Source: Methylobacterium mesophilicum SR1.6/6 (GTDB lineage Bacteria; Pseudomonadota; Alphaproteobacteria; Rhizobiales; Beijerinckiaceae). Taken from it: a stretch of 64,000 bases of DNA. The translations under genes were made by a program, and so were the position numbers. Positions 5,403 through 18,504 of this stretch are shown piece by piece (within the stretch, counting starts at the first letter, position 1; the number at the start of each line of letters is the position of its first letter). The DNA is taken from contig NZ_CP043538.1 in assembly GCF_000364445.2 (NCBI RefSeq), positions 3,801,447 to 3,865,446 of the forward strand, in the 5' to 3' direction. The notes under the pieces were generated by a model. That model saw only the letters and a list, made by a program, of their open reading frames with translations. It was not told the DNA's origin and ran no database searches.

Positions 5403-5951
5403 TCAGCTGTCACGGCCGAGGCCGAGGCCGCGGAGGATGTCGCCGATCGGGTCGATCCGCGAGGCGGCGGCGGGGGCGGGGGCGGCCTGCACGGCTTGGG
5501 GAGCCGCGGGGGCGGCGGTCCGGTCGACGGCCGCCGTGCGGGCGAGCGCGGCGTGGCGGAGGCGGGCGCTCCGGTGCGCGGCGCGCTCGTTGCCCTTGGG
5601 CCGGCGCGCCACCACGGCCTTGCGGAGCGGCTCGGACGAACCCGCCATCTCGGCCGGGAGCGGTGACGCGAGCGGCGGCATCACGGCCGCCTGCTGCGGG
5701 GCGGGGACCGCGGACGGGAGCGGGTTTGCCGGGACGACGCTGCGCAGATCCGTCCGGATCGCGCCCGTGGTCTCGGGAGCGGCCAGCCGGGCCGGCGGGT
5801 CCGTCCACGCGGCCGGCTGCACCACCGCCGCGACCGGACGAGGCGGAGTCGTCAGCACGTCGCGATTGGACGGATGCAGACTATGCGCGGCCACGGCCAG
5901 GCCGAATACGGCAATGGCGGTGGTTGCGAGTGTGGACCGGAAGTGTTCCAT
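5403..5951 (-). CDS. Hypothetical exported Pro/Ala-rich protein
   Basis: 182 residues from ATG 5951: a hydrophobic N-terminal helix (about residues 8-24) that is a signal anchor or signal peptide, then a long Pro/Ala/Arg-rich tail without recognisable domain, ending IGDILRGLGLGRDS. The frame continues to 6059 but the earlier residues do not look like protein. A perfect GGAAC-N16-CGTT sigma-EcfG-type promoter lies just upstream (5960-5984 on the minus strand); its predicted start site would fall only 2-4 bases before ATG 5951, giving an almost leaderless message. Function unknown. Confidence 0.65.
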   Translation of the reverse strand: MEHFRSTLATTAIAVFGLAVAAHSLHPSNRDVLTTPPRPVAAVVQPAAWTDPPARLAAPETTGAIRTDLRSVVPANPLPSAVPAPQQAAVMPPLASPLPAEMAGSSEPLRKAVVARRPKGNERAAHRSARLRHAALARTAAVDRTAAPAAPQAVQAAPAPAAASRIDPIGDILRGLGLGRDS

Positions 5952-6047: not shown

Positions 6048-6075
6048 AAAAAAGGCCACTCCCGAAGGAGCGGCC
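6048..6075 (-). terminator. Rho-independent terminator of small RNA copy 1
   Basis: On the minus strand GGCCGCTCC, a TTCG tetraloop and GGAGTGGCC form a 9-bp stem (one G-U pair) followed by six T residues. This is the clearest intrinsic terminator in the window. Confidence 0.85.
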
Positions 6076-6142
6076 CGAAGTCTAGGGAGGAAACGCCCAA
6101 GAAGGGCAGCGAGACCGCGACGCCATCGCGATCTCGCACTGC
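6048..6142 (-). ncRNA. Candidate small RNA, copy 1 (possible alpha-r8/suhB-like family)
   Basis: About 95 nt on the minus strand: a 5' hairpin (6137-6109), a core reading TTTCCTCCCTAGACTTCGG, and a strong terminator hairpin. A homologous element lies at 18408-18504. The 5' stem is GCGAGA/TCTCGC here but GCAGCAC/GTGCTGC in copy 2, while the inner loop region (GGCGTCGC) and core are kept, so the outer stem covaries. The single-stranded CCTCCC is complementary to Shine-Dalgarno sequences, as in several alphaproteobacterial trans-acting RNAs. Family assignment from memory of the UUUCCUCCCU motif is tentative. A weak TTGCAT / TATCTG promoter pair lies upstream. Confidence 0.65.
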
Positions 6143-6252
6143 ACAGATAGGATACTGCACTGCGGCATGCAACGGCCCGCAGGGCGTGAAGGTATGCATA
6201 TGCGCGGTGGGCTGACCGTCAGGGCATTCACAGAGGTCATGGCCGAGCCTGC

Positions 6253-14905: not shown

Positions 14906-15333
14906 GCCTGATCCGAACCTGTCCCCTTCGAGCCGGCAACGCCGCATCCGCCGCCGAGGCTCCCGTCCGCGGCGATCGGATCCACAGGCGCGGCCTGACC
15001 ACCGACGGGCCGTCTGCGCGCGTGGCCCCGGGAACACGAGAACGTGAGCGCGCGGGCGCCGCCGCCCGGGGCCGTCGTCGCGCCGGACGGTGGACGCACG
15101 GATGTACAATTTGAAATTGTGGATACTGGTATCCGGGCACGTATCCGGGCTCGCTACCCGATCCGATGCAGCAACCGAAAAGAGGCCGCCGCGGCGGGAT
15201 CCGATGGGGCGCTTCAACAGCTTACCGTCACGGCAACGATCGGTTCGCCACGCCGCCAGAACTGCGTTGCATGGACTCACTTGGGAGGGTCAGGGACGTG
15301 GGCTATGACGCTCCCGTGTCGCGGAACAGGACA
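14906..15333. other. Intergenic region upstream of the hybrid kinase
   Basis: 428 bases between the divergent Mfd-like gene and the hybrid kinase. It holds a perfect odd palindrome ACAATTTGAAATTGT at 15106-15120, and just after it a tandem repeat of TATCCGGGC (about 15130-15154). The palindrome is the most AT-rich spot around and looks like an operator or promoter element. No gene seen. Confidence 0.5.
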
Positions 15334-18153
15334 ATGCCCCGCCCGTCGGGTTTCGAGCCCCAGCATCCCCAGCGGCTCGCCGCCCTGCGGGCCTACGCCA
15401 TCCTCGACACCCCGCCGGAGCGCGAGTTCGACGAGATCGCCGAGATGGCCGCCCAGGCCTGCGGCACGCCGATGGCGCATATCAACTTCGTCGATGCCGA
15501 CCGGCAATGGATCAAGGCCGCATTCGGCCACGCGGTGCGGGCGATGCCCCTCGACTTCGGGTTCTGCACCGAGGCAATGCGCGAGGAGGGCGCCCTCGTG
15601 CTGCCGGACCTCACAGCGATGCCGGACAGCGCCGCCAATCCCCTCGTCACCGGCGAGCCGCATCTGCGCTTCTACGCCGGCGTGCCCCTCGTGACGCCCG
15701 AGGGCTGGGCGATCGGGACGCTCTGCGTCCTCGACCGCGTGCCGCGCACGCTGACCGACCAGCAGCTGTTCATCCTCAAGGCGCTCGCCCGGACCGTGAT
15801 GACGCAGCTGGAGACCCGCTGCGCCGAGGCCGCCCTGCGCCGCAACGAGGAGCGCTACCGCTCGCTCTTCGCGTTCATCGAGTCCGGCTTCTGCCTCGTC
15901 GAGATGGTGTTCGGGGAAGGTGATCGCGCGATCGACGGACGCTTCCTGGAGGTCAATCCCGCCTTCGAGCGGCAGACGGGCCTGACAGACGCGGTCGGCC
16001 GACAGTTGCAGGATCTCGTGCCCGCACCCGAGCAGCGCTGGCTCGATCTCTACGGCCGGGTCGCCTTGACCGGGGAGCCCGTCCGCTTCGAGCAGGAGGC
16101 CAGGGCGCTGGGCCGCTGGTACGACGTCCACGCCTACCGGGTCGACGGGCCGGGGCGGAACCGGGTCGCCATCCTGTTCAACGACATCACCGAGCGCCGC
16201 TGGAGCGAGCTGGCGCTCCAGGCACGGGAGGCCGAACTCCGTCTGGTCGCGGACGCCATGCCGGTGCTGATCGCCTTCATCGACCGCAACCTCGTCTATC
16301 GGTTCGCCAACGCCGCCTACGAGACCTGGACGGGCCGGTCGGCCAGCGCGGTGGTCGGCCAGACGGTCCAGGGTCTCCTCGGCGCGGAGGGTTTCGAGGC
16401 GCGGCGCGCGGCCATCGCGCAGGCCCTCGCCGGGCACGAGGTCCGCCAGGAATGGGCCTGGACCTTCCCGGACGGGGAGGCCCGGACCGCCGACACCCGC
16501 TACCTCCCGCGCCGGGACGCGGAGGGGCGGGTCGACGGGTTCTACGTGTTCGCGCACGACGTCTCGGAGCGGACGCGGATCGAGGCGCTGCTCCAGAGCC
16601 GGGCGGAGCGCCTGGAGGCCCAGGTCGCCGCCCAGACCCGCGACCGCGACCGGGTCTGGACGCTCTCGCCGGTGCTGAAGCTCGTCGCGGACCGGGACGG
16701 GCGGGCGCATGCGGTGAACCCCTCCTGGAGCCGGGCGCTCGGCTGGTCGGAGGCCGAGACCCTGGGCCGGCCCGCCCTGGACTTCGTCGCGCCGCCGGAG
16801 CGCGCGGCGGCGCAGGCGGCCCTGGAGCCGCTCTGCGCGGATCGCCGCGTCGAGGACGTCGAGCTGTCCTGCCTGACCCGCGCGGGCGACCGGCGGCGCG
16901 TCCTCTGGACCGTGGTCCCGGAGGACGGGCTGTACTACGGGTTCGGGCGCGACATCACCGAGCAGCGCCAGGCCGAGGAGGCGCTGCGGCAGTCGCAGAA
17001 GCTCGAGGCCATCGGCCAGCTCACCGGCGGCGTGGCGCACGACTTCAACAACCTGCTGACCATCATCCGCTCGTCCGTCGAGTTCCTGCGCCGGCCCGAG
17101 CTCGCGGAGGAGCGCCGCCGCCGCTACCTCGACGCGGTCTCCGACACGGTCGACCGCGCCGCCAAGCTCACCGGCCAGCTCCTCGCCTTCGCCCGGCGGC
17201 AGGCGCTGAAGCCCCAGGTCTTCGACATCGGCGCGCGCCTGCGCAGCATCGCCGACATGCTCGACTCGGTCACCGGCGCGCGCATCCGCGTCGCCATCGA
17301 GCTGCCGGACGCGCCCCGGTTCGTGCGCGCCGACGAGAGCCAGTTCGAGACGGCGCTGATCAACATGGCGGTCAATGCCCGGGACGCCATGGACGGCGAG
17401 GGCGGCCTGACCCTGCGCCTCGAGAGCGACCGGCCGATGCCGCCGATCCGCGGGCATGCCGGCGCGCGCGGGCCGTTCGTGGCCGTCCGGGTCACCGACA
17501 CCGGTGCGGGCATACCGGCCTCGGATCTCGGGCGGATCTTCGAGCCGTTCTTCACCACCAAGGAGATCGGCAAGGGTACCGGGCTCGGCCTCAGCCAGGT
17601 GATCGGCTTCGCCAAGCAATCGGGCGGCGACATCGACGTGGAGAGCGCCGTCGGCTGCGGCACCACCTTCACCCTGTACCTGCCGCAGGTCGAGGCCTCC
17701 GCGGCGTCGGACGATGCTGGGTCCGACGACCGTCGCGAGGTGGAGCCCCAGAGGGGCCTGTGCATCCTCGTGGTGGAGGACAATCTCGGGGTCGGGCGGT
17801 TCTGCACCCAGATCCTGGAGGATCTGGGCCACGCGCCGGTCTGGACGAAATCCGCCGAGGAGGCACTGGCCGAACTCGACAGGACGCCGGACCGGTTCGA
17901 CGTGGTCTTCTCGGACGTGGTCATGCCGGGCATGGGCGGCTTCGCCCTCGCGCGGCACCTGCAGGCGAGCCGCCCCGACCTGCCGGTGGTGCTGACGTCC
18001 GGCTACAGCCACGTCCTCGCCAAGGACGACACCCACGGCTTCGCCCTGGTGCGCAAACCCTATTCCGCCCAGCAGCTCGCCCAGGTGCTCTACGGGGCGG
18101 CGAAACGGCGGATCCGGCCGCGCCACGCTGCAGATGAGCTCGCGCACGACTGA
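15334..18153 (+). CDS. Hybrid sensor histidine kinase (GAF, PAS x3, HisKA, HATPase, receiver)
   Basis: 939 residues from ATG 15334, preceded by CAGGA. No membrane segments: a cytoplasmic sensor. Order: GAF domain (about 8-170, beginning RLAALRAYAILDTPPE), three PAS domains (about 175-295, 300-425 and 440-555), HisKA with phospho-acceptor His569 in VAHDFNNLLT, HATPase (NMAVNARDAMDG near 676, DTGAGIP, GTGLGLS near 749), then a receiver (about 810-925) with Asp861 in FSDVVMPGMGG and Lys in LVRKPYS. The H-D-F-N-N-L box marks the HisKA group common with intramolecular receivers. No response regulator is adjacent. Confidence 0.93.
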   Translation: MPRPSGFEPQHPQRLAALRAYAILDTPPEREFDEIAEMAAQACGTPMAHINFVDADRQWIKAAFGHAVRAMPLDFGFCTEAMREEGALVLPDLTAMPDSAANPLVTGEPHLRFYAGVPLVTPEGWAIGTLCVLDRVPRTLTDQQLFILKALARTVMTQLETRCAEAALRRNEERYRSLFAFIESGFCLVEMVFGEGDRAIDGRFLEVNPAFERQTGLTDAVGRQLQDLVPAPEQRWLDLYGRVALTGEPVRFEQEARALGRWYDVHAYRVDGPGRNRVAILFNDITERRWSELALQAREAELRLVADAMPVLIAFIDRNLVYRFANAAYETWTGRSASAVVGQTVQGLLGAEGFEARRAAIAQALAGHEVRQEWAWTFPDGEARTADTRYLPRRDAEGRVDGFYVFAHDVSERTRIEALLQSRAERLEAQVAAQTRDRDRVWTLSPVLKLVADRDGRAHAVNPSWSRALGWSEAETLGRPALDFVAPPERAAAQAALEPLCADRRVEDVELSCLTRAGDRRRVLWTVVPEDGLYYGFGRDITEQRQAEEALRQSQKLEAIGQLTGGVAHDFNNLLTIIRSSVEFLRRPELAEERRRRYLDAVSDTVDRAAKLTGQLLAFARRQALKPQVFDIGARLRSIADMLDSVTGARIRVAIELPDAPRFVRADESQFETALINMAVNARDAMDGEGGLTLRLESDRPMPPIRGHAGARGPFVAVRVTDTGAGIPASDLGRIFEPFFTTKEIGKGTGLGLSQVIGFAKQSGGDIDVESAVGCGTTFTLYLPQVEASAASDDAGSDDRREVEPQRGLCILVVEDNLGVGRFCTQILEDLGHAPVWTKSAEEALAELDRTPDRFDVVFSDVVMPGMGGFALARHLQASRPDLPVVLTSGYSHVLAKDDTHGFALVRKPYSAQQLAQVLYGAAKRRIRPRHAADELAHD

Positions 18154-18378: not shown

Positions 18379-18404
18379 GGAACAAGGTCATCCGACTCGG
18401 GTTG
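18379..18404 (+). promoter_or_regulatory. Candidate sigma-EcfG promoter of small RNA copy 2
   Basis: GGAAC at 18379-18383, a 16-base spacer, then GGTT at 18400-18403. This differs from the GGAAC-N16-CGTT consensus in one base. A start site 6-8 bases downstream would place the RNA 5' end at about 18410, immediately before the conserved 5' hairpin that begins at 18413. The fit between promoter position and RNA boundary is the main support. Confidence 0.55.
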
Positions 18405-18407
18405 ACC

Positions 18408-18504
18408 GCAGTGCAGCACCGCGACGGCGTCGCCGTGCTGCAGCCCCTCGTGGGCGTTTCCTCCCTAGACTTCGGACCGCTTCCTCAAGGGCGGTCTTTT
18501 TTTT
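18408..18504 (+). ncRNA. Candidate small RNA, copy 2 (possible alpha-r8/suhB-like family)
   Basis: About 97 nt: 5' hairpin with outer stem GCAGCAC (18413-18419) and GTGCTGC (18435-18441), inner stem GCGAC/GTCGC, then the core TTTCCTCCCTAGACTTCGG (about 18457-18475), and a terminator. Compared with copy 1 at 6048-6142, the core is identical, the outer stem differs on both sides but still pairs, and the terminator differs in sequence but not in shape. That pattern argues for a structured RNA, not a random repeat. A CCTCCC anti-Shine-Dalgarno stretch suggests action on mRNAs by base pairing. Confidence 0.7.
18475..18504 (+). terminator. Rho-independent terminator of small RNA copy 2
   Basis: GACCGC (18475-18480) pairs with GCGGTC (18491-18496) across a TTCCTCAAGG centre, and is followed by eight T residues (18497-18504). 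Confidence 0.8.

Follow-up and report, generated by a model that had tools for sequence, protein, structure and literature searches.

The window analysed here, 64,000 nt of the Methylobacterium mesophilicum SR1.6/6 genome, contains two members of the suhB/MmgR or alpha-R8 family (Rfam RF00519), hereafter copy 1 (6048-6142, minus strand) and copy 2 (18408-18504, plus strand). We hold with considerable confidence that both are genes of trans-acting alpha-R8 sRNAs, copy 1 with a PhaR-boxed promoter of housekeeping type and copy 2 with a predicted sigma-EcfG promoter and a PhaR-like box. The analysis shows family membership, a conserved structure, synteny and conserved promoter motifs; transcription, Hfq binding, control by PhaR and sigma-EcfG, and the targets are what we infer. 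Already in print are the family itself, the way its seed acts, the existence of multi-copy genomes and PhaR control of one member. New here are additional members of this known family, one of them with a new predicted input that would make it a stress-wired branch.

An earlier note, made from the DNA letters, had placed the two elements at precisely these positions and strands and had suggested that they may belong to the suhB (MmgR)/alpha-r8 family. The positions were read again from the sequence and the name is correct. The covariance-model search with Rfam that the note had asked for matched RF00519 over model positions 1-77 both at copy 1 (72.2 bits, E-value 5.8e-13) and at copy 2 (66.0 bits, E-value 2.2e-11), with a gathering cut-off of 41 bits; beyond these two matches, no family reached its cut-off in the 64-kb window. 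The copies have in common the core TTTCCTCCCTAGACTTCGG that had been described, including an identical seed, UUUCCUCCCU. The statement that the element is present twice stands for the window, where both copies are real; the genome (a single contig of 6,555,179 bases) harbours five more, and each of its seven RF00519 matches exceeds the cut-off. The parts of the two elements are listed below; transcription would start near 6138 (copy 1) and near 18410 (copy 2), giving RNAs of about 92-95 nt.

6145-6172, minus strand: copy 1, putative promoter, TTGCAT (6172-6167), 16 bases and CTATCT (6150-6145), from conserved blocks in 11 sequences
6156-6164, minus strand: copy 1, PhaR-like box CGCAGTGCA within the spacer of the putative promoter (sequence motif)
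6135-6143, minus strand: copy 1, PhaR-like box TGCAGTGCG at the putative transcript start (sequence motif)
6109-6137, minus strand: copy 1, 5′ hairpin of 13 pairs with a GGC loop, outside the Rfam model (fold and pair counts)
6095-6107, minus strand: copy 1, small hairpin GCCC-UUCUU-GGGC (Rfam structure)
6084-6093, minus strand: copy 1, exposed seed UUUCCUCCCU, the 10-mer named in PMC12559287 (sequence; unpaired in the fold)
6048-6076, minus strand: copy 1, Rho-independent terminator with T-run at 6053-6048 (terminator search)
15166-18153, plus strand: hybrid histidine kinase gene (GAF, PAS, HisKA, HATPase_c, receiver) upstream of copy 2, used as syntenic marker
18379-18403, plus strand: copy 2, sigma-EcfG-type motif GGAAC-N16-GGTT (consensus from PMC4814048)
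18407-18415, plus strand: copy 2, PhaR-like box CGCAGTGCA (sequence motif)
18413-18441, plus strand: copy 2, 5′ hairpin with 12 of 13 positions paired (fold and pair counts)
18443-18455, plus strand: copy 2, small hairpin GCCC-CUCGU-GGGC (Rfam structure and orthologue pair counts)
18457-18466, plus strand: copy 2, exposed seed UUUCCUCCCU (sequence; unpaired in the fold)
18474-18504, plus strand: copy 2, Rho-independent terminator with T-run at 18497-18504 (terminator search)

RNA folding of both copies, also called for earlier, gave 5′ hairpins and whole elements that beat their shuffles. The hairpin regions fold at -24.7 kcal/mol in copy 1 (z -3.79) and -23.1 kcal/mol in copy 2 (z -2.77), and the whole elements reach z -4.85 and -2.82, respectively. 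Once the 5′ hairpin is removed, copy 2 is no more stable than its shuffles (z -0.31), and the case there therefore rests on homology. Each region has the terminator with T-run that had been claimed, the shuffles yielding means of 0.2 and 0.3. The outer stems GCGAGA/TCTCGC (copy 1, 6137-6109) and GCAGCAC/GTGCTGC (copy 2, 18413-18441) both pair, as had been said. The inner hairpin, previously written GCGA-GGCG-TCGC, is present in both, but with the loops written in full it reads GCGA-UGGCG-UCGC (copy 1) and GCGA-CGGCG-UCGC (copy 2). The 5′ stem lies outside the Rfam model because the RF00519 model begins where this hairpin ends.

From loci L001-L183, to which a scan of named records contributed at least 118, 157 distinct copies were collected by the regular expression G[CT]GTTTCCTCCC with a downstream T5 (164 hits, some of which may be spurious; L007 is absent from the set). 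The GGC loop is in register in 100 of the 157, and we counted all 62 distinct hairpins, poor pairers included. In this set, 90.9% of cells pair, with two-sided changes at 10 of the 13 pairs, and none of 500 shuffles matched this. The hairpins have 78 cells changed on both sides, where shuffles give 20.7 (sd 6.5) and slid controls 17-21. Related sequences may surpass shuffles even without structure; notwithstanding this kinship caveat, the slid controls speak for a genuine 5′ helix. Over the whole structure, the 17 copy 2 orthologues described below have 14 two-sided cells where 4.3 are expected. The covariation first proposed from two copies is thus upheld in both samples. The small GCCC/GGGC hairpin is invariant, and pair counts therefore give no covariation evidence for it. 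In the 62-hairpin set, GCGAUGGCGUCGC at the top of the 5′ hairpin hardly changes across the genus, and the lower stem varies freely. Within this genome, L001-L005 fold a 5′ hairpin of the same shape and L007 folds a different one. The latter (G000:C1:6094163-6094238, minus strand) is the weakest copy of the genome, lacks a T-run behind its terminator stem and may be decayed or a chance match.

The region upstream of copy 1 was aligned in 11 sequences, namely the window's, nine that share its flanking genes and L085, a 125-base match only. Four blocks are conserved: TTGC and a TATCCTATCT-like block, each of them followed by a YGCRNYGCR box. The TTGC and TATCCTATCT-like blocks look like the -35 and -10 elements of copy 1. 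The putative -35 is weak, and a sigma-70 consensus scan, which demands closer matches, returned no promoter-like site at copy 1 or copy 2. The YGCRNYGCR blocks match the core of the S. meliloti PhaR (AniA) site; PhaR binds the mmgR promoter of that species in EMSA, as described in PMC12542648. Both boxes of copy 1 are kept in 11/11 related sequences. The PhaR motif was scored by its core palindrome, which occurs twice at copy 1 and once at copy 2. Among the matches listed, it is found at -120 to -38 of the GCGTTTCC anchor in 143 of the 157 copies, its positions clustering at -47 (77 copies) and between -66 and -69; the expectation is 0.091 per region, and resampled upstream sequence averages 35/157 (maximum 45). 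After removal of similar upstream regions, 43 of 55 copies listed retain a box, and in other genera of the taxonomic family it precedes 24 of the 26 copies among the matches listed. In this genome, six copies were scanned, and L001-L004 have a box while L005 and L006 lack one. A PHB_acc/PhaR-type gene is present in the genome, together with four phasin matches. As the boxes are widespread, the PHB-sensing link known for one alpha-R8 member probably extends to many siblings.

At copy 2, GGAAC-N16-GGTT (18379-18403) conforms to GAAC-N16,17-C/GGTT, the consensus given in PMC4814048 for sigma-EcfG promoters of M. extorquens. Because a motif-based choice of copies had to be avoided, orthologues of the upstream kinase served as the sample. 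The kinase search gave matches in 79/79 genomes; 30 loci were fetched, and the 19 with 83-100% identity were treated as orthologues. An alpha-R8 copy lies downstream on the same strand at 17 of these 19 loci (that of L259 has lost one seed T), and none was found at L262 and L274. The other 11 loci, at 69-73% identity, gave no exact-seed copy downstream, L281 and L283 being incomplete sequences. The full EcfG motif is in place at 16 of the 17 kinase-linked copies, 73-75 bases before the anchor (at the corresponding place in L259), and L268 has it with one mismatch; since the kinase orthologues share descent, these motif counts are not independent. A PhaR-like box follows the EcfG motif in 12 of 16 scanned kinase-linked copies and is absent in four. 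Among the matches listed, GGAAC-N16/17-GTT precedes 4 of the 157 copies, all kinase-linked, and RpoN sites (TGGCAC-N5-TTGC) precede none, with three in a looser form. NepR is matched eight times in this genome, six times over the cut-off, which accords with the several NepR proteins of M. extorquens described in PMC4814048. The open literature on MmgR and EcfG together yielded only PMC6520949, in whose available text MmgR is under AniA and sRNAs are not examined.

These upstream motifs could have another meaning. The RNAs would then still be alpha-R8 sRNAs, with the palindromes as sites of another factor or as part of the RNA 5′ end, and GGAAC-N16-GGTT would not be used by sigma-EcfG. We regard this as unlikely, although several points favour it: support in the genus comes from sequence motifs, of the full PhaR motif with its AT-rich arms the core palindrome was scored, the -47 box overlaps the putative transcript start, and the copy 2 spacer, too, shows fair conservation (76% mean identity in the kinase-linked copies). 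Against it stands the box in the untranscribed spacer (-70 to -60), where, among the matches listed, it occurs in 84/157 copies and 23/55 non-redundant ones (expected 0.012 each), whereas the control region at -100 to -80 is near background (5/157 and 3/55). As to the EcfG motif, GGAAC and GGTTGA are 94-100% identical in the kinase-linked copies, against a mean of 57% in the 27 bases upstream, and base-shuffled upstream regions yield the pattern in only 0.28/157 on average (maximum 3). We favour control by PhaR and, at copy 2, by sigma-EcfG.

The genomic settings of the copies bear on two further explanations. The usual place of the alpha-R8 family is beside the FGase gene (PMC12559287). In this genome, only L003 (2197607-2197682) adjoins such a gene (2196755-2197450), and the FGase neighbour is absent at both window copies. 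It is not required for membership, since three of the four Caulobacter siblings sit elsewhere. The window copies are paralogues away from FGase, and other genomes of the genus Methylobacterium have counterparts of both with the same neighbouring genes; the window DNA matches that of Methylobacterium sp. 2A (L066) at 94.5% over 2.9 kb and that of M. brachiatum (L107) at 90.6% over 2.3 kb. All 41 Methylobacterium genomes searched, this one included, have 4-16 RF00519 matches, and in the taxonomic family 97 of 99 genomes have a match, which exceeds the cut-off in 95. One tandem array comprises four matches on one strand within ~1.1 kb (G045:C3:4132730-4133858).

The terminator of copy 1 ends ~96 bases ahead of the ATG of a same-strand gene (5403-5951, minus), and copy 1 might accordingly be a leader or attenuator of this gene and give no free sRNA. 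We consider this very improbable, as the RNA is found at seven genomic places, L003 points to the opposite-strand FGase gene and copy 2 to an opposite-strand ORF, and the alpha-R8 family consists of free sRNAs. The product of the gene is 182 residues long, rich in Ala and Pro and signal-like at its start, and a Pfam search with it gave no match. Functionless copies of a selfish repeat, which the numerous scattered matches (4-16 per genome in the genus) might bring to mind, are hardly credible at all given a helix maintained by two-sided changes, the same gene neighbours in several species and conserved upstream motifs.

If both elements are indeed trans-acting sRNA genes, each RNA would consist of a 5′ hairpin free in sequence but kept in shape, the GCCC/GGGC hairpin, the exposed seed UUUCCUCCCU and the terminator. 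With the help of Hfq, for which the genome has one match, the seed would pair with Shine-Dalgarno regions and block the translation of several mRNAs, as judged from the Caulobacter siblings; these mRNAs would probably belong to carbon metabolism. In Caulobacter, SisA uses the same 10-mer to pair with mRNAs and repress them, as compensatory mutations showed; its interaction with a sponge depends on Hfq, and the CrfA sponge titrates four siblings (PMC12559287). The masking of ribosome sites by CCUCCC, suggested in the earlier note and seen for SisA (PMC12559287), may by analogy apply to this organism. The siblings would share one seed and differ in their inputs. Copy 1 would be driven by a promoter of housekeeping type on which two boxes for PhaR, a PHB-sensing repressor, are superimposed, and copy 2 by a general stress (sigma-EcfG) promoter with one PhaR-like box.

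Nine-base complements of the seed lie just before an ATG at nine places of the genome, one of which is the antisense of L006. The reversed pattern gives 0, but this difference is no evidence of targeting because AGGAGG is itself a Shine-Dalgarno sequence. At L190 and L191, two of the sites, the frames that follow run to just 97 and 74 codons. The sites other than the L006 antisense include genes that look like those of formate-tetrahydrofolate ligase, an oxalate/formate-type transporter, a second MFS transporter and a fructose PTS component. The ftfL-like gene was rejected as a genus-wide target, the exact AGGGAGGAA being present at 3 of 30 loci and GGGAGG at 6 of 30 (L212 is incomplete), and so was the OxlT-like gene as a general target, with an exact match at 2 of 16 loci, several of which start at another residue. 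The ftfL-like match is conserved in close relatives only, and these genes are candidates rather than targets. At L031 and L035, from another genus of the family, TTTTTAGGGAGGGCAGCGACTATG lies just 3′ of the sRNA terminator and is possibly the start site of the next gene complementing the sRNA's own seed; AGGGAGG lies downstream of 2 of the 157 copies among the matches listed.

A broader proposal, to which we give slightly less than even chances, is that the alpha-R8 siblings of Methylobacterium combine one seed with split inputs, PhaR gating most of them and the kinase-linked branch having been captured by EcfG to repress carbon-assimilation mRNAs. If this is true, the general stress response would directly repress such mRNAs (candidates being those of the ftfL-like gene, the oxalate/formate-type transporter and the fructose PTS component), and a single seed would connect general stress and PHB storage to translation. 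Most of what is known about the function of alpha-R8 RNAs comes from Caulobacter and Sinorhizobium. PMC12559287 leaves open why several siblings with a common seed are kept in so many alpha-Proteobacteria; Methylobacterium, with 4-16 siblings per genome, conserved PhaR-like boxes and a predicted stress-wired branch, offers a direct way to test this.

Among known systems, MmgR of Sinorhizobium meliloti belongs to RF00519, whose model cut-off the window copies exceed, and has three stem-loops, an anti-Shine-Dalgarno motif and a PhaR/AniA promoter site, as described in PMC7143759 and PMC12542648. It differs in being present in a single copy, in contrast with seven in this genome, in its listed length of 77 nt, against the predicted 92-95 nt or so, and in its promoters, which are listed as RpoD/RpoN, whereas copy 2 has an EcfG-type motif. 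SisA-D of Caulobacter crescentus are likewise scattered siblings of the alpha-R8 family that share this 10-mer seed and whose promoters are unrelated; the available text of PMC12559287 contains neither 'sigma factor' nor 'PhaR' and mentions no sigma-EcfG promoter or PhaR site. Finally, the AbcR sRNAs (alpha-r15) resemble the window elements in their anti-Shine-Dalgarno seeds, their use of Hfq and a partial likeness to the suhB model (PMC7143759), but they form a separate family of 114-120 nt with two seeds, whereas the elements described here span all 77 positions of that model.
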